Source: Sinosporangium siamense
GTDB taxonomy: Bacteria > Actinomycetota > Actinomycetes > Streptosporangiales > Streptosporangiaceae
Length of the DNA: 64,000 nt
Assembly (NCBI RefSeq): GCF_016863435.1
Contig: NZ_BOOW01000034.1
Coordinates: 62,001 to 126,000, forward strand
Direction: 5' to 3'
In this document: in pieces, positions 11,335 through 62,238 of the stretch
How the letters are laid out: each line of letters begins with the position of its first letter
Position numbering within the stretch: position 1 is the stretch's first letter
Made by a program: the position numbers and the translations under genes
The notes under the pieces: model-generated
Told to the model about the DNA's origin: nothing
Seen by the model: only the letters and a program-made list of their open reading frames with translations
Databases searched by the model: none

Positions 11335-13293
11335 TCACTTGGACGGCAAATGTCGAGCCAAAAAATCGAGGATCCGGGCCCCGTGATCGACGAGCGCCCG
11401 CGGGTCGTGGACGCCGTGCCCCTCCTCCGGATAGATCACCAGCTCGGACTCGACGCCGTGCTCACGAAGGGCCCGGTGGTACATCAGCGCCTGCTCGGCC
11501 GGGGTCGCCAGGTCCTTGCCGCCGGCGATCAGCAGCACCGGAGCGCCGGCCAGTGCGGCACGGTGGAGCGGGCTGCGCGTCCGGTAGTCCGAGGACGGGT
11601 CCAGGGGATCTCCCTCCAGGCACATCCGGTCAAAGCCCGGCAGGTTGGACGCGTAGTGCTGGCTGACCCACTCCGTGACCGGCGACCGCGAAACGGACGC
11701 CGCGAAGACGTCGGTGGCGGTCACGAGCCAGGCCGCCATCAGCCCGCCGTAGCTGAGGCCGGAGACCGCGACACGGTCCGGATCCGCCAGGCCGGCGTCG
11801 ACCAGGTGCCGTACGCCGGAGATCAGGTCGGGCACGTCCCGTTCCCCGCACATGTCCTTCAGGCCGGCCCGGACGAACTCCTGACCGCGGCCGGTGCTGC
11901 CCCTGATGTTCGCGTGCAGTACGGCATAGCCGGCCGAGACGAGGAGCGGAGTCAGCGTGTCGCCGGTCATCCAGGAGTTCCGCCACGCCCAGACCGGGCC
12001 GCCGTGCACCTCGGCGACGAGCGGGAACGGTCCATCGCCGTCCGGGACCGCGAGGAACCCCTGGACGAGCGTCGAATCCGGCGCCTCCCACTCCACGGCA
12101 CGCATCGTTCCCGCGCGGGCGATCACGTCCTCGGCACCGGGTGCGCGCAGGTCCAGGCGGACGCGGGCTTCGCCGTACTCGATCACGGCGAGCGCGGGCG
12201 GACGCGCGTAGCTGTGCAAGGTGATGGCGACGGTCCCGCCTCCGGCGGCGAAGGTGGGGACCGGCTCGCCGCAGGTCTCCTCGGACTGCCAGAGAGTGGC
12301 GTTCCGTCCACTGGTGACGTCGTATGTCGCGATCACGGTGGTGAGGCCGCGCAGGCCGGCATAGGCCAGGACGGTCTCGTCGATCCAGTGCTGGTCACTG
12401 ACGTCCACCCCGTGGGTGTCGACCAGCTGCCAGTCGCCCCCGGCCGGCTCGAGGACATATAGGTATCCCGAGTCCAGGCCCCGGTCGCTCATCAGGCCGG
12501 CCACGACGGAGAGCCTGCTCCCGGACTGGTTCGCCCCGGGCATTGCCACCTGCGCCGCGGGACGCGGGAGCGGGGTCGAATCCATGCTTGCGAGGTCGAC
12601 CCGCACCAGGTCGGCCGTGTACCACGCGGACTCGTCGGGCGCGGCGGAGACGACGCACAGGAGCGCCCGGTCGCCCGCCCAGCACGCCTGCCACACGGTC
12701 TTGCCGTCCACCGGCCGCACGATCGCGCCGGTCGCCGGATCGAGGACAAGGGCACGCCGAGGGCCGTCGCCGTCGTGCTGCGGACTCAGGATGGGCCGCC
12801 ACGCGTCGTCCTCGGTCCGCTCCGACGGAATCCGGCCGGAGCCGAAGGCGTCCGAGAGGCTGGCGCCCGGCTCGGCGAGGCCGACCAGCAGCCGGCTTCC
12901 GTCGGGAGACCACGCGAGCGATTCGACGACACCGGCGGCCAGCGGGTGCGCCTCGCCGGTGAACGGACGGCTTGCGTCCCAGGGCCCCACGTGCACGGTG
13001 GGCCGGTCGGGGCCCTGCACCGCCCACGCGAGGCGGGTGCCGTCGGGCGACCACACGGGCAGTGTCGTTCCTGGCGACATGTGCAGTGCCTGGGTCTCCA
13101 GGTCGAGCACGCAGGCGGCCTGGGCGACGCCGCCGTCCTCGTCCGCGACGGCCCCGGCGAAGCCGACCCGCCTGCCGTCCGGCGAGACCGCGAGGCTTTC
13201 TGCGCTCGCCGGGACGTCACGGCCCGGCCGTCCGAGAGCCTCGTAGTGCTCCGCGGCCAGCTTGAGCAGGTGGCCGGGCAGGTCCGCGCTCAC
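11335..13293 (-). CDS. S9 family (prolyl oligopeptidase/acylaminoacyl-type) peptidase
   Basis: A 652-residue protein with a seven-bladed propeller-like N-terminal half (repeats such as 'LAVSPDGRRVGFAG', 'PVWSPDGTRLAW', 'LAWSPDGSRLLV') and a C-terminal alpha/beta-hydrolase domain. The nucleophile lies in G-L-S-Y-G-G (about Ser514), with an acid in 'GGKDLATP' and His in 'EEGHGVHDP'. It has no signal peptide and is probably cytoplasmic, where it would cleave a short peptide or acyl-amino conjugate brought in by the ABC importer. GTG 13293 overlaps the stop of the upstream FAD oxidase (GTGA). The same frame is open further upstream, but that part is shadow of the oxidase gene. Confidence 0.88.
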   Translation of the reverse strand: MSADLPGHLLKLAAEHYEALGRPGRDVPASAESLAVSPDGRRVGFAGAVADEDGGVAQAACVLDLETQALHMSPGTTLPVWSPDGTRLAWAVQGPDRPTVHVGPWDASRPFTGEAHPLAAGVVESLAWSPDGSRLLVGLAEPGASLSDAFGSGRIPSERTEDDAWRPILSPQHDGDGPRRALVLDPATGAIVRPVDGKTVWQACWAGDRALLCVVSAAPDESAWYTADLVRVDLASMDSTPLPRPAAQVAMPGANQSGSRLSVVAGLMSDRGLDSGYLYVLEPAGGDWQLVDTHGVDVSDQHWIDETVLAYAGLRGLTTVIATYDVTSGRNATLWQSEETCGEPVPTFAAGGGTVAITLHSYARPPALAVIEYGEARVRLDLRAPGAEDVIARAGTMRAVEWEAPDSTLVQGFLAVPDGDGPFPLVAEVHGGPVWAWRNSWMTGDTLTPLLVSAGYAVLHANIRGSTGRGQEFVRAGLKDMCGERDVPDLISGVRHLVDAGLADPDRVAVSGLSYGGLMAAWLVTATDVFAASVSRSPVTEWVSQHYASNLPGFDRMCLEGDPLDPSSDYRTRSPLHRAALAGAPVLLIAGGKDLATPAEQALMYHRALREHGVESELVIYPEEGHGVHDPRALVDHGARILDFLARHLPSK

Positions 13294-14510
13294 TCGTACT
13301 CCGGTGCGGCGTTGAGGATCTCGTCCTCGGTCATGTCCCTGCGCTCGAACCGGTCCACGGCGTAGACGGACGGGTCGACGTAGTCCACCGCGTTCCCGGC
13401 GACGAGGTCGGCGACCATCCGGGCGAGCCCGGGACCGTGCGTCACACCGGCCTCGTTGTCTCCCGCCATGACGTGCAGGCCGGGCACCTCGGGCACGGGG
13501 CCCGCGATGAACCGCCCGTCGGGCGTGTAGCACGGGACACCCTGAGTCCAGGCGGCGACCGAGCGGTCGCGGCCGTTGAGCAGCACGTCAAGGCGGGGCC
13601 CCAGCGCGGCGCTCATCGCGTCGACGAGTTCCTCGACCCGGGGGTGATCGCCGACCGCGATCCGGTCGGCATAAGCAGACAGGGGCGCGTAGCCGTCGGG
13701 ATTCCCCCAGGTGATCCCGCCGCGGTGTTCACGCAGCCATAGACCGTTCCATTCCGGGACCATGACGGTCGGCGACGACTCCGCGACTCCCGAAGGCGGC
13801 GAGACCACCCGGGACGCGATGACCCGCGCGATCGGCACGGCGGCCTGGAGCGGGCGCAGCAGCTCGTTGGTCCAGGCGCCACAGGCCAGGATCACCGTAC
13901 GGCTGCGCAGATCGCCGGCCGGGGTGCGGACACCGCGGACGCCGCGATCGTCGGCCAGAAGCCTGTTCACCGGGGCGCCGGACCGGATCTCGACGCCCTC
14001 GGCACCCGCCAGCGCGGCCAGCGCCCGGGTCGCCCGCCCGGCGCTGATCTGTATGCCGCCGGGGTGGAGGACGGCGGTGGTGACGGCGTCGGCGCTCAGG
14101 AGGTGCCCGGTGACCTTCGCGGTCTCCAGCGGGTCCAGGGCCCGGGTGCCTGCCGGAGCGAGCGGGTGGTCGGCCATCTTCGCCACGCGCGGCGCGCCGG
14201 CCTCGGAGGTGGCGACGAAGAGACTTCCGTTGCCGCGGTAGTCGATCGGCTTCCCGCGCTCGGACAACGAGCGGTAGAACCGCACGCCGTAGTCCTCAAG
14301 GGCGTAGTCGTCCGTCGAGGGGACCGGCATGTAGCCTGCCGTCCAATAGCCGACGAAGCCCGCACCCGAACCGGAGGTCCCCCGGCCGGGCTCACCGGCG
14401 TCGAGCATGACCACGCGGCCGATGCCCGCCTGCTGAAGGTGATTGGCGAGGGCGGCGCCGAAGATTCCCGCACCGACGACGATCGCGTCGGCATCCTGGT
14501 GGTCCGTCAT
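13290..14510 (-). CDS. FAD-dependent amine oxidase (DAO family), first gene of the unit
   Basis: A 406-residue DAO-superfamily oxidase. N-terminal FAD site G-A-G-I-F-G-A-A and 'VVMLDAGEPGRGTSG' are followed by a substrate domain and a C-terminal 'G-L-H-V-M-A-G-D-N-E-A-G-V-T-H-G-P' FAD segment. It is only distantly like the other DAO enzyme at 3.3-4.6 kb, so two successive C-N oxidations are plausible. ATG 14510 has a GGAGAG ribosome-binding site 4 bases away; the open frame upstream of it has no coding character. It leads the operon and overlaps the S9 peptidase start. Confidence 0.87.
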   Translation of the reverse strand: MTDHQDADAIVVGAGIFGAALANHLQQAGIGRVVMLDAGEPGRGTSGSGAGFVGYWTAGYMPVPSTDDYALEDYGVRFYRSLSERGKPIDYRGNGSLFVATSEAGAPRVAKMADHPLAPAGTRALDPLETAKVTGHLLSADAVTTAVLHPGGIQISAGRATRALAALAGAEGVEIRSGAPVNRLLADDRGVRGVRTPAGDLRSRTVILACGAWTNELLRPLQAAVPIARVIASRVVSPPSGVAESSPTVMVPEWNGLWLREHRGGITWGNPDGYAPLSAYADRIAVGDHPRVEELVDAMSAALGPRLDVLLNGRDRSVAAWTQGVPCYTPDGRFIAGPVPEVPGLHVMAGDNEAGVTHGPGLARMVADLVAGNAVDYVDPSVYAVDRFERRDMTEDEILNAAPEYE

Positions 14511-14765: not shown

Positions 14766-15584
14766 TCAGCCGTACTTACGGATCGTCGCGTGGATCCAGT
14801 CGGCGTAGGCGGGCACGTTGACGTAGAGGCCCGGGCCCGTCTCGCACGACGGGCTTGGGGCGCCCGGGCCTGAGGTGGCGCCGATGAGTTCCCACCTGCC
14901 GTCCCGGCCGCGCTGCATCTGGGGCGAGCCGGAGTCGCCGTTGCACGCCATGGCGTCGGGCACCCGGCTCACCGTGCACAGCCGGGCCTTGCCGGCGAAT
15001 CCCGGGGCGCACTCGGAGGCGGCGCCTATGCGGGTGTCGAGTTCCTGGAGGCGGTCGGCCATTCTCCAGTCGGCGGGGTTCTTGCTGGACACGGTGGTGC
15101 CGAAGCCGATGATCCGGGTCAGGCTGCCGGGCGGGCCCGGCTGCTCGGCGATCGGGATGGGCTTGTAGGAGACCGGGCGGTCCAGGCGGATCAGTCCGAT
15201 GTCGTCAGTGTTGGGCACGCCCGGGGTGAAGCGCGGGTGTATCACCTCCTTGACGATCTCGCGGACCGTGCCGCCGGACTGCCGGTGGTCGCTGCCGATC
15301 CGGACGGTTCCCTCCGGGATCGAGCCGGCCTCCGCGTTGAGGCAGTGGGCCGCGGTCACCACCCACTGCGGGTGGATCAGCGATCCTCCGCACACCTCGT
15401 CTCCGAGCCCCCGGCCGGGGGGCGAGATCTCGAGCGACGCCATGAACGGGTAGGACTCGGTGGAGTCCTTGCCGTTGATGATCGCTCGGGCGGTGCCGGC
15501 CGGCGCGGTGACGCAGACGGCGCCTGCCATCACGATGATGATGAAACGCGAGAGAGCACGATCGGGCGATTTACTACCAAACAT
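14766..15584 (-). CDS. secreted trypsin-like serine protease (S1 family)
   Basis: A 272-residue protein from ATG 15584 (a longer TTG start at 15620 is less likely). A signal peptide (basic start, hydrophobic 'FIIIVMAGAVCV', cleavage about 'TARA') is followed immediately by I-I-N-G, the activated N-terminus of S1 proteases. The triad is visible as His in T-A-A-H-C, Asp in T-D-D-I-G-L-I and Ser in G-D-S-G-S-P. Cysteine pairs fit a chymotrypsin fold. Because the mature N-terminus follows the signal peptide directly, the enzyme appears to lack a zymogen propeptide and would be active on export. A single gene with its own terminator. Confidence 0.9.
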   Translation of the reverse strand: MFGSKSPDRALSRFIIIVMAGAVCVTAPAGTARAIINGKDSTESYPFMASLEISPPGRGLGDEVCGGSLIHPQWVVTAAHCLNAEAGSIPEGTVRIGSDHRQSGGTVREIVKEVIHPRFTPGVPNTDDIGLIRLDRPVSYKPIPIAEQPGPPGSLTRIIGFGTTVSSKNPADWRMADRLQELDTRIGAASECAPGFAGKARLCTVSRVPDAMACNGDSGSPQMQRGRDGRWELIGATSGPGAPSPSCETGPGLYVNVPAYADWIHATIRKYG

Positions 15585-15741
15585 TTGGAATAAACCCTTA
15601 AATTGCGGATCGTGACGCAATCACGCTAGAAGTCACCACAATGCGTGGCGGGATGCCCTCCGGTCGGGCGGTGGGGGCAGCCTTCGTGATCGCCATTCGA
15701 GCCTGAGGCCGCGCGGTAAGGGCGCAGGTCGGGGCCAGAAT

Positions 15742-15872: not shown

Positions 15873-16832
15873 TCACGGCATTAGGCGCGCGGCCGCCCCC
15901 AGCAGGGCGTCGACGTCGATCTCCGGGTCGTCGCGGACGACCGCGACGTCCAGCCCCGCGGCGGCGAGGCGGCCGAGGGATCCGGCGGCCTCGGCAGCCG
16001 TGCCGCTCGCGGTGAACAGGTCGAGCAGATCGTCGTCCACGAGGTCCACGCGGGGTTTGCCCGACCGCCACCCCTCGCGGAAGGCCAGGCACAGGTCGGC
16101 GGACAGCCCGGCCGTGCGGGTGATCTCGTGGTCGCCGTGTACGCCCAGGTAGGTCGCCACCATGGGCCGGAGCCTCCCCCGCGCCGCAGAACGCGACACG
16201 CCCCCACCCTCAACCGATAGGCCGACATACGCTGACAATTCCATCGCGGCACCCAGGCGTCGCCGTACCGCCGCGATGTAGGGCGCCGAGGACAGGATCG
16301 ACAACAGCACCCCGTCCGCCCGCGAGGCCGCGACGTCGAGCGCCCGCGGGCCCTTCACGCCCAGCACGATCGGGGGCGCGGCGCGCGGCGGGACGAACGA
16401 GAGCCCCGCGTCGACCCGGAAGCCCTCGCCGGCGAACTCCACCCGCTCGCCCGTCAGCATCGCGCGGACGATGTCGACCGCCTCGGCGAGCCGCGTCACC
16501 GGCCGTTCGAAGGGGATGCCGAGCTGCTCGGTCATCCACCGCGCATTGCTCGCCCCCAGCCCGAGCACTCCCCGGCCGCCGCTGATCTCCTCCAGCGCGG
16601 CGAACTCCATGGCGATGAGCGCAGGATGCCGCGTCCACGGATTCACGACGCCGATGCCGACCCGGATGCGCGACGTCGCGGCGGCGATCGCCCCGGCGAG
16701 GGCGAACGCGCCGCGCTCGCAATAGTCCTCGGTCACCCACACCGTGTCGTATCCGGCGTCCTCCGCCTTACGCGCCACCTGTACGGCGGAGCCGGCGTGG
16801 CGGTGCCCCGAGATCGAGAAGGCGAGCCTCAC
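15873..16832 (-). CDS. LLM class flavin-dependent oxidoreductase (small)
   Basis: A 319-residue luciferase-like TIM-barrel protein. Typical features are 'A-R-K-A-E-D-A-G-Y-D-T-V-W-V-T-E-D', 'R-I-R-V-G-I-G-V-V-N-P-W-T-R-H-P' and 'G-R-G-V-L-G-L-G-A-S-N', the pattern of F420-dependent reductases/dehydrogenases (MER-like). FMN use cannot be excluded. GTG 16832 overlaps the stop of the PLP enzyme gene. Last gene of the five-gene operon; it would oxidise or reduce an intermediate. Confidence 0.9.
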   Translation of the reverse strand: MRLAFSISGHRHAGSAVQVARKAEDAGYDTVWVTEDYCERGAFALAGAIAAATSRIRVGIGVVNPWTRHPALIAMEFAALEEISGGRGVLGLGASNARWMTEQLGIPFERPVTRLAEAVDIVRAMLTGERVEFAGEGFRVDAGLSFVPPRAAPPIVLGVKGPRALDVAASRADGVLLSILSSAPYIAAVRRRLGAAMELSAYVGLSVEGGGVSRSAARGRLRPMVATYLGVHGDHEITRTAGLSADLCLAFREGWRSGKPRVDLVDDDLLDLFTASGTAAEAAGSLGRLAAAGLDVAVVRDDPEIDVDALLGAAARLMP

Positions 16833-18079
16833 CGGGCCGCCGTTTCGAGGGCGCTGTCCATCGCCGCCACGGTGGGCTCGATCACGGGGACGGCGGGCAG
16901 GGTCGCGGAGGTGGCGCCGATGTCCTTGAGACCGGTGGAGGTGCCGACGACGACCACCGTCGACCCCTCGGGCAGGCCGAGCTCCTCCACGGCCAGCACC
17001 GCCGTCACCGACGACGCCTCAAGATAGAGCCCGCTCTCCCGGCCCAGGCGGCGCTGCGCGTCGAGGATGCGCGTGTCGTCGCCGACGGGCACGGCGGCGC
17101 CGCCGCTCGCCCGCAGGGCCGCGAGGCCCTGGTAGGTGCCGTACGGCGAGCCGATGGAGAAGGCGACCGTGGCGTCGGCCGGCACCGGGCCCGGCGTGTC
17201 AGTGCCGGCGGCGAGGGCGCCCGCGTGGGGCCCGAACCGCTCGGCAGCGATCATGCGTGGCATATGGGGTGCCACGCCCAGGGTGACGAGGTCGGCGAAG
17301 CCGCGCTGGATGCCGGCCAGGCCGTCGGCATAGGAGACGGGCACGACGACGACGTCGGGGACCGCGCCGAGGTCGGAGACGATCTCATAGGCGATGGTCT
17401 TGTAACCGTCGACGCCGAACCCGATGGAGCCCACCGGCGGGGCGGCGTGGCCGGACAGGGCCAGCCAGCCGCGCTTCTCCACCAGCTCCCGCATGAGGGT
17501 CCACCGGTCGGGGGCGTGCTCCAGGGCCACGACGCGGGCACCGTACACCTGCATGAGGGTCTTCATGGCCTCGGGCACCGACGCCACGGTGAGCACGACA
17601 CACGGCAGCCCCGCGCGGGCGGCGTAGGCGGCGACGGCGGCACCGTGGTTGCCGGTGCTCGCCACGACGACCGCCTCCACGCCGAGCTCGACCGCCTTGG
17701 TGACCGCGACCGAGGCCAGCCTGTCCTTGTAGGACCAGGTGGGGTTGCGCGTCTCGTCCTTCACGTGGAGGCCGCCGAGTCCGAGCCGCGCGGCGGTGCG
17801 CTCCAGGGGGACGAGCGGTGTGCCGCCCTCGCCGAGGCTCACCGCCGGGGTGCCGGGGCGCAGCGGCAGCAGCGCCCGGTGCCGGAACAGGCCGGGCTGA
17901 TCGCCCGCCAGGGGCAGCCCGGCGCCGCGCGGCACGTCGTAGACGGGCAGGACGTTGCTCGGCGCGCCGTCGAGCTCGCAGGCCGGGCAGCCCCGCCCGA
18001 CCAGCGGCAGCGACGGGTCGGGGTAGGGGGCGGCGCAGCGGACGCAGGCCAGGGACCCGGTGTAGTAGGAGGCGGTCAC
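16829..18079 (-). CDS. threonine-synthase-like PLP-dependent enzyme with N-terminal zinc-ribbon-like motif
   Basis: A 416-residue fold-type II PLP enzyme. Residues ~10-40 hold two Cys pairs (C-V-R-C and C-P-A-C), as in threonine synthase and related lyases. The PLP lysine is in 'N-P-T-W-S-Y-K-D-R-L'; the phosphate-binding stretch is 'A-S-T-G-N-H-G-A-A-V'. The setting inside a permease/LLM/M24 operon makes a role in threonine biosynthesis unlikely; beta-elimination or beta-replacement (ammonia-lyase type) on a breakdown product is more plausible. GTG 18079 overlaps the M24 stop (GTGA), and its own stop overlaps the LLM start. Confidence 0.85.
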   Translation of the reverse strand: MTASYYTGSLACVRCAAPYPDPSLPLVGRGCPACELDGAPSNVLPVYDVPRGAGLPLAGDQPGLFRHRALLPLRPGTPAVSLGEGGTPLVPLERTAARLGLGGLHVKDETRNPTWSYKDRLASVAVTKAVELGVEAVVVASTGNHGAAVAAYAARAGLPCVVLTVASVPEAMKTLMQVYGARVVALEHAPDRWTLMRELVEKRGWLALSGHAAPPVGSIGFGVDGYKTIAYEIVSDLGAVPDVVVVPVSYADGLAGIQRGFADLVTLGVAPHMPRMIAAERFGPHAGALAAGTDTPGPVPADATVAFSIGSPYGTYQGLAALRASGGAAVPVGDDTRILDAQRRLGRESGLYLEASSVTAVLAVEELGLPEGSTVVVVGTSTGLKDIGATSATLPAVPVIEPTVAAMDSALETAAR

Positions 18080-19230
18080 AGGGGCACCACCGGCAGCTCG
18101 CGCGGCGCCACCGTGAACATGTCCACCCCGGAATCGGTCACCACCAAGGTGTCCTCGACCATCATCCCGCCCCATCCCAGCTTGTAATACGGCGTCTCAA
18201 AGCAGAATGTCATCCCCGCCGCCAGCGGCGTCACGACGCCCGGCGACACGATCGGCGGCTCGTAGATCGCGAGCCCGATCCCGTGCCCGCAGTGCTGGCG
18301 GCGGTAGGGGGTGATGCCGCCGCGTTCGACCCCCGCCATCGCGACCTCGAACACCGACTCGGCGGGCACCCCCGGCGCGGCCAGGGCGAGCTGGTCGTCC
18401 AGCCCGGCCAGGATCGCCGAGTAATGCGCGCTCTGCACGGAGTCGGGCGCGCCGAGCACGGCGGTGCGCCCGATGTCCGACCAGTAGCCGCCGTAGAGGC
18501 AGCCCACGTCGAACCGCACCGGCTCCCCCGCCGCCCACCGGCGGTCACCCGGGTGGGCGTCGGCCAGCGCCGAGCGCGGCCCGGTCAGGGCGACCACGAA
18601 ACGGGGCTCGCCGCCGCCTGCGACCATGGTCGCGGCCACCTCGCGGGCCAGCTCACGTTCCGTCACCCCCTCACCGGCCGTCGCGAGCGCGGCCCGCACG
18701 CCCTCCTCGGCGAGGTAGGCGGCGTAGCGCAGCAGCTCCACCTCCTCCGGCAGCTTCACCCCGCGCAGCGCCGACACCCAGGCGGTCGCGTCCACCGCCT
18801 CCTCGATCCCGGCGCCTTCTATGCCCAGCCGGGCCACCCCCACCTGCTTGAGCGCCACGGCGAGCGCGCTCGGCAGGTCGGGGTGGCGGTCGGCCATGCC
18901 GGTGAGCGGCGTCGCCGACGCCGACTCGAAATAGAACCTGCCGAACGGCACAAGCCGGTCCACGGGCACTCCCGCGTCGGCGGCCGGGGCCGTGTCGGCC
19001 GCCGGGCACACCAGCCACAGGTCGTCGCCGGTCACCACCGCGGCCATCTGATGGGCGCGGAAAAGCGGCCCGGCGACGCTCCGGTAGCCCGTGGCGTACA
19101 GGACGCTCTCCGGCGAGGTCAGCACGACCGCGTCGAACGGCGCCTCGGCCAGCGCCGCCCGCAACCCGGCCAGCCTGCGGCCGGCCAGCTCGCGCAGGTC
19201 GATGTCGGGGGCGGGACGCAGCGCGCTCAC
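18076..19230 (-). CDS. M24 family metallohydrolase (Xaa-Pro peptidase/creatinase fold)
   Basis: A 384-residue protein with a creatinase-like N-terminal domain (~1-130) and a C-terminal pita-bread domain. Metal ligands are visible: Asp in 'FDVGCLYGGYWSDIGRT', His in 'CGHGIGLAIYEPP', Glu in 'CFETPYY' and Glu in 'VEDTLVV', so a dinuclear metal site is intact. Family members split X-Pro peptides, creatine or ectoine; the operon context (NCS1 permease, LLM enzymes) fits a small N-containing compound better than a peptide. GTG 19230 overlaps the stop of the LLM gene upstream. Confidence 0.88.
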   Translation of the reverse strand: MSALRPAPDIDLRELAGRRLAGLRAALAEAPFDAVVLTSPESVLYATGYRSVAGPLFRAHQMAAVVTGDDLWLVCPAADTAPAADAGVPVDRLVPFGRFYFESASATPLTGMADRHPDLPSALAVALKQVGVARLGIEGAGIEEAVDATAWVSALRGVKLPEEVELLRYAAYLAEEGVRAALATAGEGVTERELAREVAATMVAGGGEPRFVVALTGPRSALADAHPGDRRWAAGEPVRFDVGCLYGGYWSDIGRTAVLGAPDSVQSAHYSAILAGLDDQLALAAPGVPAESVFEVAMAGVERGGITPYRRQHCGHGIGLAIYEPPIVSPGVVTPLAAGMTFCFETPYYKLGWGGMMVEDTLVVTDSGVDMFTVAPRELPVVPL

Positions 19231-20240
19231 GCCTGCCGCCCCTGCCGTGCGATGACCGTCTCGCCGAACTCCTCCATCATGTCCAGCGTGGCCGGCACCG
19301 AGTCCGCCGCGAACAGCAGGCCCGCCAGGGTGTCGACGCCCGCCGCGCGATATTCCTCCACCTGCTCGGCCACGCTCTCCGGCGTGCCGATGAGGTTGCG
19401 CCGGGCGAGGTCGGCGACTCCCTGGTCCTTGAGCGTCGTGCCCGACAGCGACACCAGGTGGTTGTGGAGCTGCGAGGAGCGGAAGCGCTCCCACGCGAGC
19501 TCGTGCGTCGGCGCGACGCTCACCGCCACCTGGAGCGCCACCTCGAACGCCTCGGGCAGCTCACGTCCCGCCGCCTCGGCCTGCGCGACGATCTCCGACC
19601 GGCCGCGCGCCACCTCCTCTGGGGTGAGGCAGGCGGGCAGCCACCCGTCGCCGTAGAGCGCGGCCCGCGTGCGGGAACCGGGCGCGTTGCCGCCCGACAG
19701 GATCGGCAGCCGCCCCACCGGCTTGGGGAACGACTCGACGTCGCGCATCCGCACGTATTTCCCGTCGAACGACGCGCTGCGCCGGGTGAACAGCGCCGTC
19801 AGGGCCTGGATCGCCTCCGCCGCGTGCTCACCCCGGTTGATTTTGCCGTCGGGATGCATCGCCTCGTATTCCTCGCGGTAGGCGCCGATGCCCACCCCGA
19901 GGACCGCGCGGCCCTTCGACAGCCGGTCGAGCGTCGCGGCCTGCTTGGCCGCGACCACCGGGTGCCGGAAAGGCAGCACCATGATCGCGGTCGCCAGGCG
20001 GATCCGGCTCGTCAGCGCGGCCACGTAGCTCAGATACGCGAACGGGTCGTAGTAGCGGGGCGGGGTGTCGAACTCCTCGCGGACATACGCCTGTGTGGTC
20101 ACATGGTCGTTGCCCCAGATCGAGTCGAACCCCAGCCGCTCCGCCGCCAGCGCCAGCTCGACCGCCTGATCGGCGTCGGCATAAGGGACGGGATACATCA
20201 ACCCTTCCGTCCCCGTCGGCACACCCAGGCCGAACCTCAC
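19227..20240 (-). CDS. LLM class flavin-dependent oxidoreductase (large)
   Basis: A 337-residue luciferase-like protein. 'MRFGLGVPTG' start strand, 'A-E-R-L-G-F-D-S-I-W-G-N-D-H' and 'L-S-K-G-R-A-V-L-G-V-G-I-G' mark the family. It is clearly different from the smaller LLM of the same operon. Class C flavin monooxygenases of this type open heterocycles or cleave C-N/C-S bonds using reduced flavin; no flavin reductase gene is present nearby, so F420H2 or a distant reductase would be needed. GTG 20240 overlaps the permease stop (GTGA). Confidence 0.9.
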   Translation of the reverse strand: MRFGLGVPTGTEGLMYPVPYADADQAVELALAAERLGFDSIWGNDHVTTQAYVREEFDTPPRYYDPFAYLSYVAALTSRIRLATAIMVLPFRHPVVAAKQAATLDRLSKGRAVLGVGIGAYREEYEAMHPDGKINRGEHAAEAIQALTALFTRRSASFDGKYVRMRDVESFPKPVGRLPILSGGNAPGSRTRAALYGDGWLPACLTPEEVARGRSEIVAQAEAAGRELPEAFEVALQVAVSVAPTHELAWERFRSSQLHNHLVSLSGTTLKDQGVADLARRNLIGTPESVAEQVEEYRAAGVDTLAGLLFAADSVPATLDMMEEFGETVIARQGRQA

Positions 20241-21565
20241 GATGCCTCTCCTTCCACAACTTCCCTCGTGCGTGCTCCCAACCGCCCGGCCAGCAGGCCG
20301 AGTACGGCATAGCACGCGAAGCCGTACACCAGTCCCTCGATGGCGTCGGTGAGCAGCACATCGGTGTACTTCGACAACACCGCCGCCACCACCCAGGCCA
20401 CAAGCGCCTCCACCCGCACCTTCGGCGCCGAGGCCAGCAGGTCGGAGCCCGACCTGTTCCTCGCCAGCACCCAGAAGTGCGCGATCATCACGCCCGCGAA
20501 CGGCGGCGCCACCAGCCCCACGATCTGCAGGAACGTGAGGAACTGCGCCGCGAGCCCGGCGAACGCCACGCAGACCGCGATCACGATGGACACCACGGTC
20601 CAGACCGGCTTGCCGACGCGCAGCCGCAGCGTGTTGGAGGCGTTGGTGAACGCGAGCGAGGCGGAGTAGAGGTTGTTGTCGGCGGTGTTCCACAACGCCA
20701 GCACCAGCATCACGGCGGCCGGGGCCAGCAGCCCGAGGCCCTGCATGACCAGGACGAAGTTACTGTTGCCCACTTTCATCGCCGACACCGTGGCGATGGT
20801 CTCGAAGACCCCCGCACCCACGATGAACCCGCAGAAACTGGAGATCAGCACGTCACGCGGCCGGATCGCGAACCGGCTGACGTCGCTCACCAGCGCCGCC
20901 CCGGTGATCCAGGTGGCGATCACCGCGCCCACCGCCGCGGCGAACCCGATCGGCACCGCCGGCACATGGGCGACCACGTCGCCGAACCCGCCCTCCCGGC
21001 TGCCGATCACGAAGAGGGCGACGAGCGCGATGCCGATCTCGATCGGCACGGCGATGGCGGAGAACTTCGCGAGGCCCTTGAACCCGAAGATCGCGGTCGA
21101 GGTGATCGCGAGCGCGAACGCCAGCACGAACGCCCACGACGGGATCGCCGGCAGCAGCTTGTTGACCGCGCCGCCCCACGTGTCCATCAGCACCCCGATG
21201 AACCCCATCGCGAGCACGCCGAGCAGCAGCGACACAACGACCGCGCCCTGCCGGCCGAACACGACCCGCGCGGCGAGATAGCTGGTCAGACCGGTACGGT
21301 GACCCACCAGGCCCACCAGCGTCGCCACCACGACGAGCACCAGGTTGCCGACGGCGATGGCGGCCATGCCCTCGCCGAACGACGTGCCGCCGCCGACCAC
21401 GCCTCCCACCAGGAAGCTGCTGACACTGATGTTCCAGCCGATCTGCACGATGATCATCTGGAGCAGGGATTTGCGGCGCTCCGGCGGCACCGGTTCGAGG
21501 GCGTGGTCGTTGAGGTCGTCGGCGAGCGACGTGCGCTCTGGGGGCACGGCACGGCTCGTGGTCAC
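20237..21565 (-). CDS. NCS1/cytosine-permease-type transporter
   Basis: A 442-residue membrane protein with about 12 hydrophobic segments and the nucleobase:cation symporter-1 pattern (early 'IGWNISVSSFLVGG', 'GLTSYLAARVVFG' and 'LWNTADNNLYSASLAF' motifs, the last one typical of CodB-like permeases). It would import a purine/pyrimidine- or hydantoin-like compound with Na+ or H+. GTG 21565 has an excellent GAGGAGG ribosome-binding site 5 bases away. It heads the five-gene operon and thus sets its substrate; divergent PucR regulator next door. Confidence 0.9.
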   Translation of the reverse strand: MTTSRAVPPERTSLADDLNDHALEPVPPERRKSLLQMIIVQIGWNISVSSFLVGGVVGGGTSFGEGMAAIAVGNLVLVVVATLVGLVGHRTGLTSYLAARVVFGRQGAVVVSLLLGVLAMGFIGVLMDTWGGAVNKLLPAIPSWAFVLAFALAITSTAIFGFKGLAKFSAIAVPIEIGIALVALFVIGSREGGFGDVVAHVPAVPIGFAAAVGAVIATWITGAALVSDVSRFAIRPRDVLISSFCGFIVGAGVFETIATVSAMKVGNSNFVLVMQGLGLLAPAAVMLVLALWNTADNNLYSASLAFTNASNTLRLRVGKPVWTVVSIVIAVCVAFAGLAAQFLTFLQIVGLVAPPFAGVMIAHFWVLARNRSGSDLLASAPKVRVEALVAWVVAAVLSKYTDVLLTDAIEGLVYGFACYAVLGLLAGRLGARTREVVEGEAS

Positions 21566-21620
21566 GAGGTCCTCCTCACACAGGCCATTTGGGACCTGGC
21601 CTTGTGATAGTCCATAGTCG

Positions 21621-21640
21621 GTGAGGGTGATGAACCTCAC
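21621..21640. promoter_or_regulatory. candidate operator between divergent permease operon and PucR gene
   Basis: The only clear dyad in this short divergent region is GTGAGG (21621-21626) / CCTCAC (21635-21640) with 8 bases between. It lies 56-75 bases from the permease start, as expected for an autoregulated divergent control site. Confidence 0.4.
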
Positions 21641-21676
21641 TACGTGGACTGCTCGGAAGATACAGGGGGCGTTCTT

Positions 21677-23140
21677 GTGGATTCGCCACAACACTCGCAC
21701 TCCGACGACCCTAACCCGGCCGATCCCCGCAGCTCAGATCACGCAGAGGCCTGCCCCGCCCATCCCGAAGATCCCGCCTGCTCGGACGACTCCGCCGGCC
21801 CTTCAGGCTCAGATTCGGCTCCCGCCGGCCCCGCCCCGGCCACCCCCAGCGGCTCGCAAAAGTCCTCGCCCAGTGGCGGTCGTTCCGACCTGCCCGGCTC
21901 CGCTTCATCCGCACCTGTAGGCCCTGGAGAGGTGCCGCCCGGCCCCGGTCCCGAGCTGGCGCGGCGGGCCGCGCGGCTGCTGGAGCAGGTAGACGACATG
22001 TCCGCCGCGCTCGTCGACGCCGTCTGGGAGCACCTCCCGGGCTACGATCCCGCCCGCATGGACGTCCGGGACCTCGCCGACGTCGTCGCGCCCAACATCC
22101 GCGCCGTCCTCGCCGCAGTCGCCGAACGGCGAAGCCCGGCGGGCGGGGAGCTGACCCCGGCCGCGGCCCTCGGCGAGCGGCGGGCCATCCAGGGGGTCCC
22201 GGTGGAGGGCGTGGTGGCGTCCTGGCACGCGGCCGAACGGCTGCTGCTCCAGCGTTTCGCCGCCGTCGGCCCGCCGATGGAGGCGCCGGTGCTCACCGAG
22301 CTCACCCACCGCCTCGCCGCCGTCGTGGACACCATGATCGAGGCGTCGACCGACGCCTACCGACAGACCCGCAGCGAGGCCGCGGGACACCTCGACCAGA
22401 TCGCCACCGACCTCGTCTCCCGCCTGGCCGGCGGCGAGCCGCTCGACCCGTCCGAAGTGGAGGAGCGCGCCCGCCTCATCGGCGTGCAGGCCCAGGTCCC
22501 CCATCGGGCCGCGGCCATCGGGATGCGCGGCGCCGTACGACCCCTGGAGATCACCCGTGCCCAGCGAGTGCTGCTCGACGCCCTCCGCCCGCGCCTGCGC
22601 AGCCGCGTGCTCGCCGGCACCCGAGGGCAGGCCCTCCTGCTCGTCCTCGCCGACGCCCCCGGCATCCCCGAGGCCCTCACCCGCGCCGCAGGCCGCCCCG
22701 GCGTGCCGCCCGGAGTCGTCGTCGGCCTGGGCGAACCCCGCCCCCGCCTCGGCGAGGCGGGGGCCTCCTGCCGGGAGGCCCTCGCGGCCCTGGAGGCGGG
22801 CCTGCGCATGGGCGCCGACCGCGCCGTCATCCCCTTCGAGAGGGTCATCCCCGAGGTGCTCCTCATCGACAACCCCCTGGACGCCAGGCGCCTCGCCGAC
22901 ACCATCCTCGCTCCGCTACGGCAGAGCCCTGCCCTGGTGGAGACCCTGCGCGTCTTCCTCGCCACCGGACTGTCGACCCGCCTCACCGCGCGCCGCCTGC
23001 GCATCCACGAGAACACCGTGAGCTACCGCGTCCGGCGCGTGGTCCAGCTGCTTGGGGTGGACTCCGCGGCCGAGTTGGTGAGGGCCGACGTCCTCCTCGC
23101 CCTGCGCGCCGAGGAACTCGGCGAGGCACCCGACCGATAG
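21677..23140 (+). CDS. PucR family transcriptional regulator
   Basis: From GTG 21677 (AGGGGGC before it) 487 residues; an upstream GTG at 21644 and a later one near 21,930 are also possible. The first ~85 residues are low-complexity Ser/Pro/Asp-rich and probably disordered. The conserved part starts near 'ARRAARLLEQVDDM'. The middle is the helical RsbT-co-antagonist-like/CdaR region ('GVPVEGVVASWHAAERLLLQRF'), and the C-terminus is the PucR helix-turn-helix ('TARRLRIHENTVSYRVRRVVQLL'). It is divergent from the NCS1/LLM operon and is its likely activator, sensing the imported compound or an intermediate. Confidence 0.85.
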   Translation: MDSPQHSHSDDPNPADPRSSDHAEACPAHPEDPACSDDSAGPSGSDSAPAGPAPATPSGSQKSSPSGGRSDLPGSASSAPVGPGEVPPGPGPELARRAARLLEQVDDMSAALVDAVWEHLPGYDPARMDVRDLADVVAPNIRAVLAAVAERRSPAGGELTPAAALGERRAIQGVPVEGVVASWHAAERLLLQRFAAVGPPMEAPVLTELTHRLAAVVDTMIEASTDAYRQTRSEAAGHLDQIATDLVSRLAGGEPLDPSEVEERARLIGVQAQVPHRAAAIGMRGAVRPLEITRAQRVLLDALRPRLRSRVLAGTRGQALLLVLADAPGIPEALTRAAGRPGVPPGVVVGLGEPRPRLGEAGASCREALAALEAGLRMGADRAVIPFERVIPEVLLIDNPLDARRLADTILAPLRQSPALVETLRVFLATGLSTRLTARRLRIHENTVSYRVRRVVQLLGVDSAAELVRADVLLALRAEELGEAPDR

Positions 23141-61938: not shown

Positions 61939-62238
61939 ATGATCAGCAGGACACTGGCGGCCACGGCACTGGCGGCGCTGGCCGCCGCTGCCCTGGCCGG
62001 CTCGGCCTCCCCCGCCTCCGCGTCGGCCACCACCTCGGCGTCGGCCCGCCCCTGCGGCGGGCCGCACAAGGTCGGCGACAAGGCGGTCTGGTACAACTGC
62101 TCAGGCGTCAATCAGTCCATCTGCGTGCGGCAATACTTCCCCCTGGCCAACTATCGGGCGGTCGTGGCCCCTCGGGGCGAGCACCAAAACTCATGGCGGT
62201 GGACGATCGACATGACCACCGACATGAGCCGCTGTTAG
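61939..62238 (+). CDS. small secreted Cys-containing protein
   Basis: A 99-residue protein with a clear signal peptide (residues 1-31: 'SRTLAATALAALAAAALAGS', cleavage after 'ASPASASA'). The mature ~65 residues contain four cysteines, in 'RPCGGPHKVGDKAVWYNCSG', 'QSICVRQYF' and the final '-S-R-C', likely two disulphides. AAAGGAC lies 8 bases before ATG 61939. It is monocistronic, with its own terminator. I do not recognise the family; an extracellular inhibitor, antimicrobial or cell-wall binding peptide are all possible. Confidence 0.75.
   Translation: MISRTLAATALAALAAAALAGSASPASASATTSASARPCGGPHKVGDKAVWYNCSGVNQSICVRQYFPLANYRAVVAPRGEHQNSWRWTIDMTTDMSRC

Follow-up and report, generated by a model that had tools for sequence, protein, structure and literature searches.

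What does a tightly packed operon of five familiar enzyme and transporter families do in an actinomycete? The case considered here lies in Sinosporangium siamense (contig NZ_BOOW01000034.1), in a 64,000-nucleotide stretch, positions 62,001 to 126,000 of the forward strand, that was analysed whole and that we call the window. Its five minus-strand genes encode an NCS1-family permease, two luciferase-family (LLM) oxidoreductases, an M24-fold hydrolase and a pyridoxal phosphate (PLP) enzyme, with a PucR-family regulator divergent from them. The operon is probably devoted, as a module, to breaking down some small nitrogen compound. All of its families are known; we could not find their combination, or its control, described. 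Gene families were called by Pfam on the longest mechanical open reading frames of the window, and the features, in window positions, are as follows.

20237 to 21565, minus strand: NCS1-family permease (CodB branch), first gene of the operon; 442 amino acids; Pfam Transp_cyt_pur, 1.9e-27.
19227 to 20240, minus strand: LLM1, luciferase-family oxidoreductase, TIGR03619; 337 amino acids; Pfam Bac_luciferase.
18076 to 19230, minus strand: predicted M24-fold metallohydrolase with Creatinase_N; 384 amino acids; Pfam Peptidase_M24, 3.4e-42.
16829 to 18079, minus strand: fold type II PLP enzyme, threonine-synthase-like; 416 amino acids; PALP, 2.2e-58.
15873 to 16832, minus strand: LLM2, luciferase-family oxidoreductase of the branch of Mer (F420-dependent methylene-tetrahydromethanopterin reductase); 319 amino acids; Bac_luciferase.
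21677 to 23140, plus strand (start at 21677 or 21932): PucR-family regulator, divergent; HTH_30, 3.1e-15; GGDEF_2, 2e-11.
21675 to 21691, no strand: palindrome TTGTG-N7-CACAA at the 5' end of pucR, a likely PucR operator judging by its conservation.

The Bac_luciferase E-values of the two LLM genes are 7.1e-58 and 3.5e-51, and start and stop codons overlap as GTGA at all four operon junctions. The first-pass annotation, made from the letters of the window alone, had named these families and described five GTGA-overlapped genes beside a divergent PucR. Pfam agrees with the names, and the coordinates, the junctions and the HTH_30 match bear out the layout.

The gene order of the operon is conserved far beyond chance. 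Its M24 gene occurs at E<=1e-60 in 8 of 150 genomes of the family, the window genome among them, with the order kept in all eight; the seven other carriers, read over 17–18 kb, each show the full order and a divergent PucR. At E<=1e-45 the gene is found in 4 of 396 genomes of the phylum, again counting the window genome. Two of the three others have the full order with PucR, and the third (L029) has PucR, LLM1, LLM2, an NMT1-type ATP-binding cassette (ABC) transporter, the M24 gene and the PLP enzyme. The first-pass annotation had staked its idea of a dedicated module with its own regulator on such synteny, and both the conserved order and the divergent PucR support it.

The four enzymes travel together well beyond the family. 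An M24 alignment run against named genomes picked out 86 relatives, and the 80 best loci among them form the set used here. These loci are not independent: at least six (L031, L032, L033, L035, L036 and L059) match carriers in the family sample, and a few pairs share one contig or genome. Counting neighbours on the strand of the M24 gene within 9 kb, LLM1 and the PLP enzyme both lie beside it at 49 of the 80 loci, and LLM1, M24, PLP enzyme and LLM2 occur together at 45, ten of which carry an LLM2 only 28–38% identical. Nineteen loci have the four enzymes plus NCS1 and a divergent PucR. None of the partner genes lies on the M24 strand at the thresholds used in 22 of 80 loci, many of which are distant proteobacterial M24 relatives and some of which sit on contigs that end early.

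Around constant enzymes, the importer and the accessory genes vary. NCS1 may be replaced by the NMT1-type ABC transporter of L029 or by a dipeptide-type ABC transporter with a family 5 binding protein (L053). That these four enzymes, all of common families, stay together across several phyla while the transporter is swapped points to a real, undescribed pathway. At loci from Acidimicrobiia and Acidobacteria the extra genes encode a xanthine-dehydrogenase-type molybdenum hydroxylase, a hydantoinase/oxoprolinase subunit and a thiohydantoin-desulfurase-like DUF917 protein, along with a short-chain dehydrogenase and a SnoaL-like protein (L053 and L048 by domain scan, the other loci by clustering). 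Extra genes at L055, a Mycobacterium locus, encode a Rieske oxygenase, an alpha/beta hydrolase and an FAA-hydrolase-like protein, and Mce genes are present too.

Several of these loci are of interest in themselves. L055 shares a contig of Mycobacterium sp. E1747 with L076, giving two versions of the core, about 16 kb apart and differing in their accessory genes; L055 matches LLM1 only in part. Genes of the molybdenum hydroxylase and hydantoinase-type module flank the core on an Acidimicrobiales contig (L065; 1147-7571 and 12786-18227) and on a Gammaproteobacteria-labelled contig (L082; 181-5104 and 10332-15774). A contig labelled as a Poseidoniales archaeon and a marine Acidimicrobiales contig (the pair L068, L069) share gene clusters in nearly the same order, which suggests wrong binning. 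Four proteobacterial M24 relatives (L075, L086, L094 and L098) stand, by eye, with an IclR regulator, a cystathionine-lyase-like PLP enzyme and an ABC transporter, possibly a sister pathway.

A palindrome, TTGTG-N7-CACAA, accompanies the operon wherever permease and regulator stand together. All 19 loci that combine NCS1 with a divergent PucR have it without mismatch, about 84–164 bases before the NCS1 start. We first saw it in an alignment of upstream regions from loci whose permeases are more than 50% identical, so counting within that set is partly circular; L051, L027, L028 and L029 lay outside that alignment, and the L045 site was located apart from it. The palindrome is present also in L027, L028 and L029, where PucR is only 32–34% identical. 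The window holds a single palindrome, at 21675–21691, with zero mismatches. Its weight rests on conservation, because its occurrence in the window alone is not significant: a search that tolerates one mismatch would give 0.44 matches by expectation, and in 37 of 100 shuffles one or more turned up. A repeat search of 21520–21720 at length 8 listed no inverted repeat.

Genome-wide, the palindrome can be private to the operon. Of six genomes searched whole, Streptosporangium amethystogenes and two Jiangella genomes have their sole site there, which suggests that in these three the pathway is self-contained and may be complete within about 5.7 kb. PucR probably acts at the palindrome, its predicted operator, and would control the operon through it. 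Where the regulator itself starts is uncertain: GTG 21677 agrees best with the position of the palindrome and GTG 21932 is a less likely alternative, while PucR residues before about 85–100 are unconserved in most relatives.

The M24 protein keeps a metal site and lacks the histidines typical of X-Pro peptidases. Five dinuclear metal ligands (D241, D252, H316, E345 and E359) are retained in 30 of 30 aligned relatives, so that metal-dependent hydrolysis, as in prolidase or ectoine hydrolase, is the expected activity. In X-Pro peptidases, the histidines of LPHG and GLEIHE belong to the proline subsite. At the first position the window protein has D224 (Asp in 28 of 30 relatives, His in none), at the second Y323 (Tyr in 26, His in 4). 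These residues argue against the X-Pro peptidase label: the metal site is kept, but the two proline-subsite histidines are replaced in most or all relatives. An AlphaFold2 model (mean predicted local distance difference test, pLDDT, 94.0) ties between prolidase (Z 38.6) and ectoine hydrolase DoeA (Z 38.0). It also matches creatinase (Z 35.4) and the dimethylsulfoniopropionate lyase DddP (Z 32.4), so the fold does not pick the reaction. Against the ectoine hydrolase models the protein stays under both cut-offs (TIGR02993, 63.8 of 613 bits; NF038259, 80.6 of 575 bits).

The standard label of the PLP enzyme is likewise doubtful. It keeps the PLP lysine, K118 in a KDR motif, in 12 of 12 sequences. 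The segments NPxR(L/I)EGQKT and PVGNAGN make up the phosphate site of threonine synthase; in the first, Arg has become Gly and GQK has become GYK in 12 of 12, and in the second, S-Y-A-D-G replaces GNAGN in the window protein. No listed NCBIfam threonine synthase cut-off is reached, the best NCBIfam match giving 194.9 of 303 bits. This speaks against the threonine synthase label: the lysine is kept, but the phosphate-site segments are changed and every cut-off is missed. The protein also carries a CxxC..CxxC segment at its N-terminal end, and the window genome has three other relatives, 34–38% identical.

The permease belongs to the cytosine carrier branch with an altered binding site. Its nearest solved structure is CodB (126 bits; Mhp1 gives 22 bits), and CodB Gln105, Trp108 and Phe204 align with A119, F122 and W219. 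Among ten relatives, Ala119 is kept in nine (Ile in one), Phe122 and Trp219 in all ten. The side chains of CodB Gln105, Trp108 and Phe204 contact cytosine, alanine at Gln105 or Trp108 strongly reduces transport, and the family may have Trp at Phe204 (PMC9379551). The label of a CodB-type cytosine permease is hard to support, as the Gln105 needed for cytosine transport is Ala here. The two aromatic stacking positions (F122, W219) fit a flat ring as ligand.

Two ways in which the first-pass annotation's idea could have failed, an M24 enzyme confined to X-Pro peptides and a permease for a standard base, did not come true: by residue comparison the X-Pro histidines are mostly absent, and the permease has no equivalent of CodB Gln105. 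That annotation's creatinase-fold hydrolase stands and gains a five-ligand metal-hydrolase site with a likeness to ectoine hydrolase and prolidase. Its reading of the LLM proteins survives in part. The family holds; a ring-opening or C–N-cleaving oxygenase gives way to an F420-dependent hydride transferase as the likelier activity, on the TIGR03619 and Mer matches, with two genomes in disagreement.

Both LLM enzymes lean towards coenzyme F420. LLM1 scores 206.9 bits against the 166.9-bit cut-off of TIGR03619, a family named as F420-dependent, and a Rhodoplanes LLM1 scores 200.4. Its AlphaFold2 model (pLDDT 89.4) is closest to Mer (Z 34.6), followed by the flavin mononucleotide (FMN) enzyme SfnG (33.5), FGD1 (33.0) and the uracil oxygenase RutA (30.4); against the RutA sequence model it reaches 59 bits, cut-off 498. 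The best models for LLM2 are Mer and other F420 families (PRK02271, 158.2 bits, cut-off 276), and each of its seven solved-structure matches at E<=1e-15 is either Mer or a further F420 enzyme.

In a set of related genomes, cofD is commoner where M24 has LLM neighbours. Of 15 hand-picked genomes with LLM neighbours, 13 have cofD, 12 over cut-off and one at 248.8 of 257.45 bits. The core is seen in 14 of the 15; L083, where the contig ends, shows LLM2 and M24 alone, and one stop interrupts its cofD frame. Among 19 genomes chosen as having M24 without the core, five have cofD, and one of these five, L097, has LLM2 and the PLP enzyme. Genomes whose M24 has no LLM neighbour have cofD in 4 of 18 cases (Fisher p 2.9e-4 for 13/15 against 4/18; related genomes, so a guide only). 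Within Alphaproteobacteria the corresponding counts are 4 of 4 (L101, L080, L083 and L097) against 4 of 15 (p 0.018, likewise a guide among relatives). Both enzymes are predicted F420-dependent hydride transferases, a lean and not a proof.

These assignments can be assembled into a chain of reactions. The NCS1 permease, judging by its family, would import a small N-heterocyclic compound. The two LLM enzymes would carry out F420 hydride transfers, at least one of them reducing and so de-aromatising the ring, a step that we put only slightly on the favourable side of even. The M24 protein, probably a hydrolase, would then open the reduced ring at a C–N bond and pull the unfavourable reduction forward; that the bond is one of a ring amidine or amide is an even chance. 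Ectoine hydrolase opens a cyclic amidine in this manner. From the resulting amino acid the PLP enzyme would eliminate ammonia or another beta group, which we somewhat favour, and the keto acid would enter central metabolism. Taken whole, this sequence of N-heterocycle import, LLM reduction, M24 ring hydrolysis and ammonia release by the PLP enzyme is tentative, rather more apt to fail at some step than to hold throughout. A more specific version is possible though on the unlikely side: an aerobic, F420-driven route in which two LLM hydride transferases saturate an aromatic nitrogen ring to a cyclic amidine, which an M24 enzyme opens before a PLP lyase frees ammonia, both of these enzymes having a new specificity.

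If true, that aerobic route would be a second, convergent reductive ring breakdown beside the anaerobic uric-acid pathway, spread across several phyla and, in many actinomycetes, placed under one dedicated regulator. Should the F420 reading hold, aerobic bacteria would also be seen to use the cofactor in the catabolism of natural ring compounds. Labels that mislead (X-Pro peptidase, threonine synthase, cytosine permease) would have kept the undescribed pathway, whatever its chemistry, from view. The first-pass annotation knew of no described pathway with this exact set, and we likewise found none in open-licence literature, some search terms possibly having been too strict; passages of PMC4617892, PMC13390362 and PMC9477822 held no match to the operon.

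Several observations weigh against the reductive chain. LLM2 falls under all listed F420 family cut-offs, and the LLM1 model scores SfnG, an FMN enzyme, only about 1 Z below Mer. The core is present with no real cofD or cofH match in Salinibacterium (L063) and Pseudactinotalea (L064), so F420 is not strictly needed unless salvaged; Homoserinibacter (L060) has core and cofD with no cofH match. All three assemblies are of unstated completeness. In these three, either F420 is salvaged or the LLM enzymes use another cofactor. The cofD contrast follows descent among genomes that are not independent, which is why its p values serve as guides only. Nor is the palindrome always exclusive to the operon: Nonomuraea zeae has two sites, the window genome three and Paractinoplanes lichenicola five, with one to seven per genome for a reversed control pattern across the six genomes. 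The window genome's two extra exact sites (C20, C43), against six for the reversed control, are taken as chance. Membership of the NCS1 family is no proof of a ring substrate, because the NCS1 carrier MetT takes up metformin, a ringless compound (PMC13390362). Proteobacterial M24 relatives, finally, adjoin other PLP enzymes, which leaves room for an amino-acid derivative as the substrate of M24.

The best-placed alternative, itself doubtful, is an oxidative N-heterocycle route. One or both LLM enzymes would act as monooxygenases with reduced FMN and O2, opening the ring as RutA does with uracil; M24 would hydrolyse the open-chain product and the PLP enzyme would release ammonia. This comes closest to the first-pass reading, and it would accommodate the two core genomes without F420 genes and the nearness of LLM1 to SfnG. 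By eye, isochorismatase-like (L046, L050) and RidA-like (L076) proteins lie near the core, and proteins of both kinds occur in the Rut pathway. The route is countered by the seven solved F420-type matches of LLM2 and by LLM1 itself, which scores 207 bits to the F420 family and 59 to RutA and whose model reaches Z 34.6 with Mer and 30.4 with RutA; moreover, the operon has no flavin reductase gene.

An amino-acid or peptide-like substrate is unlikely. Here M24 would remove an acyl or amidino group, the PLP enzyme would cleave the freed beta-substituted amino acid and the LLM enzymes would process the released fragment. Proteobacterial M24 relatives beside different PLP enzymes speak for it, as do dipeptide-type or other ABC transporters in annotated plasmid records. 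So does Rhodococcus sp. JS3073, recovered in a plasmid search with M24, where M24 and PLP genes are adjacent with no adjoining LLM1 or LLM2 gene; LLM1 itself had no match at 1e-40 in the plasmid collection, and open-licence papers yielded nothing on the substrate in JS3073. The core group, on the other hand, differs at both X-Pro histidine positions, and we know of no NCS1 carriers for peptides.

Detoxification or natural-product metabolism, instead of nutrient breakdown, is still less probable. The patchy spread (8 of 150 genomes in the family, 4 of 396 in the phylum, the window genome in both) would suit it, and so would a gene resembling, by eye, a non-ribosomal peptide synthetase near the L076 core version in Mycobacterium sp. 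E1747 and a major facilitator superfamily protein near the L029 core that could be an exporter. Yet the in-operon transporters scanned are all uptake types (NCS1, NMT1-type and dipeptide-type ABC). Breakdown of S-methyl-thiohydantoin or ergothioneine was a further lead that we rejected: the Acidimicrobiia DUF917 protein gives only 80 of 450 bits to the desulfurase model, and the window operon has none. That the operon is another form of the known reductive uric-acid (yanthine) pathway is very improbable, although the classes of step are the same (LLM reductase, ring hydrolysis, PF00291 lyase). SsnA was sought in 13 genomes other than that of the window, 12 of which combine LLM1 with M24 and the PLP enzyme; it passes its cut-off in none, and weaker amidohydrolase matches occur in all 13, which argues that this is not that pathway. 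The window operon contains no SsnA, HyuA, YgeW or YgeY family member, and LLM2 is only 27–28% identical to LLM enzymes near Chloroflexota ssnA.

Immediately downstream of the operon is a trypsin-like serine protease gene (14766-15620, minus strand). Farther on, an S9-type peptidase gene (11335-13533, minus strand), with a sub-threshold lasso peptide isopeptidase match of 90.8 of 400 bits, overlaps the end of a DAO-family oxidase gene. We rejected the oxidase as an operon member: as a protein query it found no match at 1e-8 in 80 named and 10 unnamed loci.

The operon shares features with several known systems. The Rut pyrimidine pathway likewise pairs a luciferase-family enzyme with a nucleobase-type permease for a ring compound. 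Its permease RutG is of NCS2 type, unlike the NCS1 carrier here, and the operon has no RutB–RutF family, with LLM1 far below the RutA cut-off. Ectoine degradation (DoeA/EutD, EutB) likewise places an M24-fold hydrolase, with which our model ties, beside a fold type II PLP enzyme. The operon proteins reach just 63.8 of the 613 bits required by the DoeA model and 55.6 of 413 for EutB, far short of both cut-offs, and ectoine degradation is not known to involve LLM enzymes or an NCS1 permease.

Similar in logic is the reductive uric-acid pathway, in which a reduction removes the aromaticity of the ring, hydrolases act on it and a PF00291 lyase takes part; in Chloroflexota a luciferase-family enzyme, putatively F420-dependent, belongs to it (PMC12507026). 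The pathway (XdhD; YgfK/UacX or a luciferase-family enzyme; SsnA; HyuA; YgeW/UacY; YgeY; YgeX) shares with the operon a reductive step, hydrolytic ring opening and a final PLP lyase, and some operon relatives carry a xanthine-dehydrogenase-type hydroxylase and a hydantoinase-type subunit as it does. The operon differs in having a single M24 hydrolase instead of SsnA, HyuA and YgeY, two LLM enzymes, NCS1 and PucR. In the phylum of a Chloroflexi-labelled locus, SsnA occurs at E<=1e-100 in 40 of 251 genomes, 31 over cut-off, and an LLM enzyme lies within a few kilobases of ssnA in 5 of 12 Chloroflexota loci read. The one that we scanned is closest to Mer models, and in a tree of 27 rows, few of them outgroups, all five fall with LLM2 and away from LLM1.

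We know of no M24 hydrolase, PLP enzyme or NCS1 permease associated with picrate breakdown, and its substrate is nitroaromatic. It nonetheless uses luciferase-like hydride transferases of the kind proposed here: LLHT-family F420 enzymes reduce the aromatic ring and so make picrate a carbon and nitrogen source (PMC8498797).

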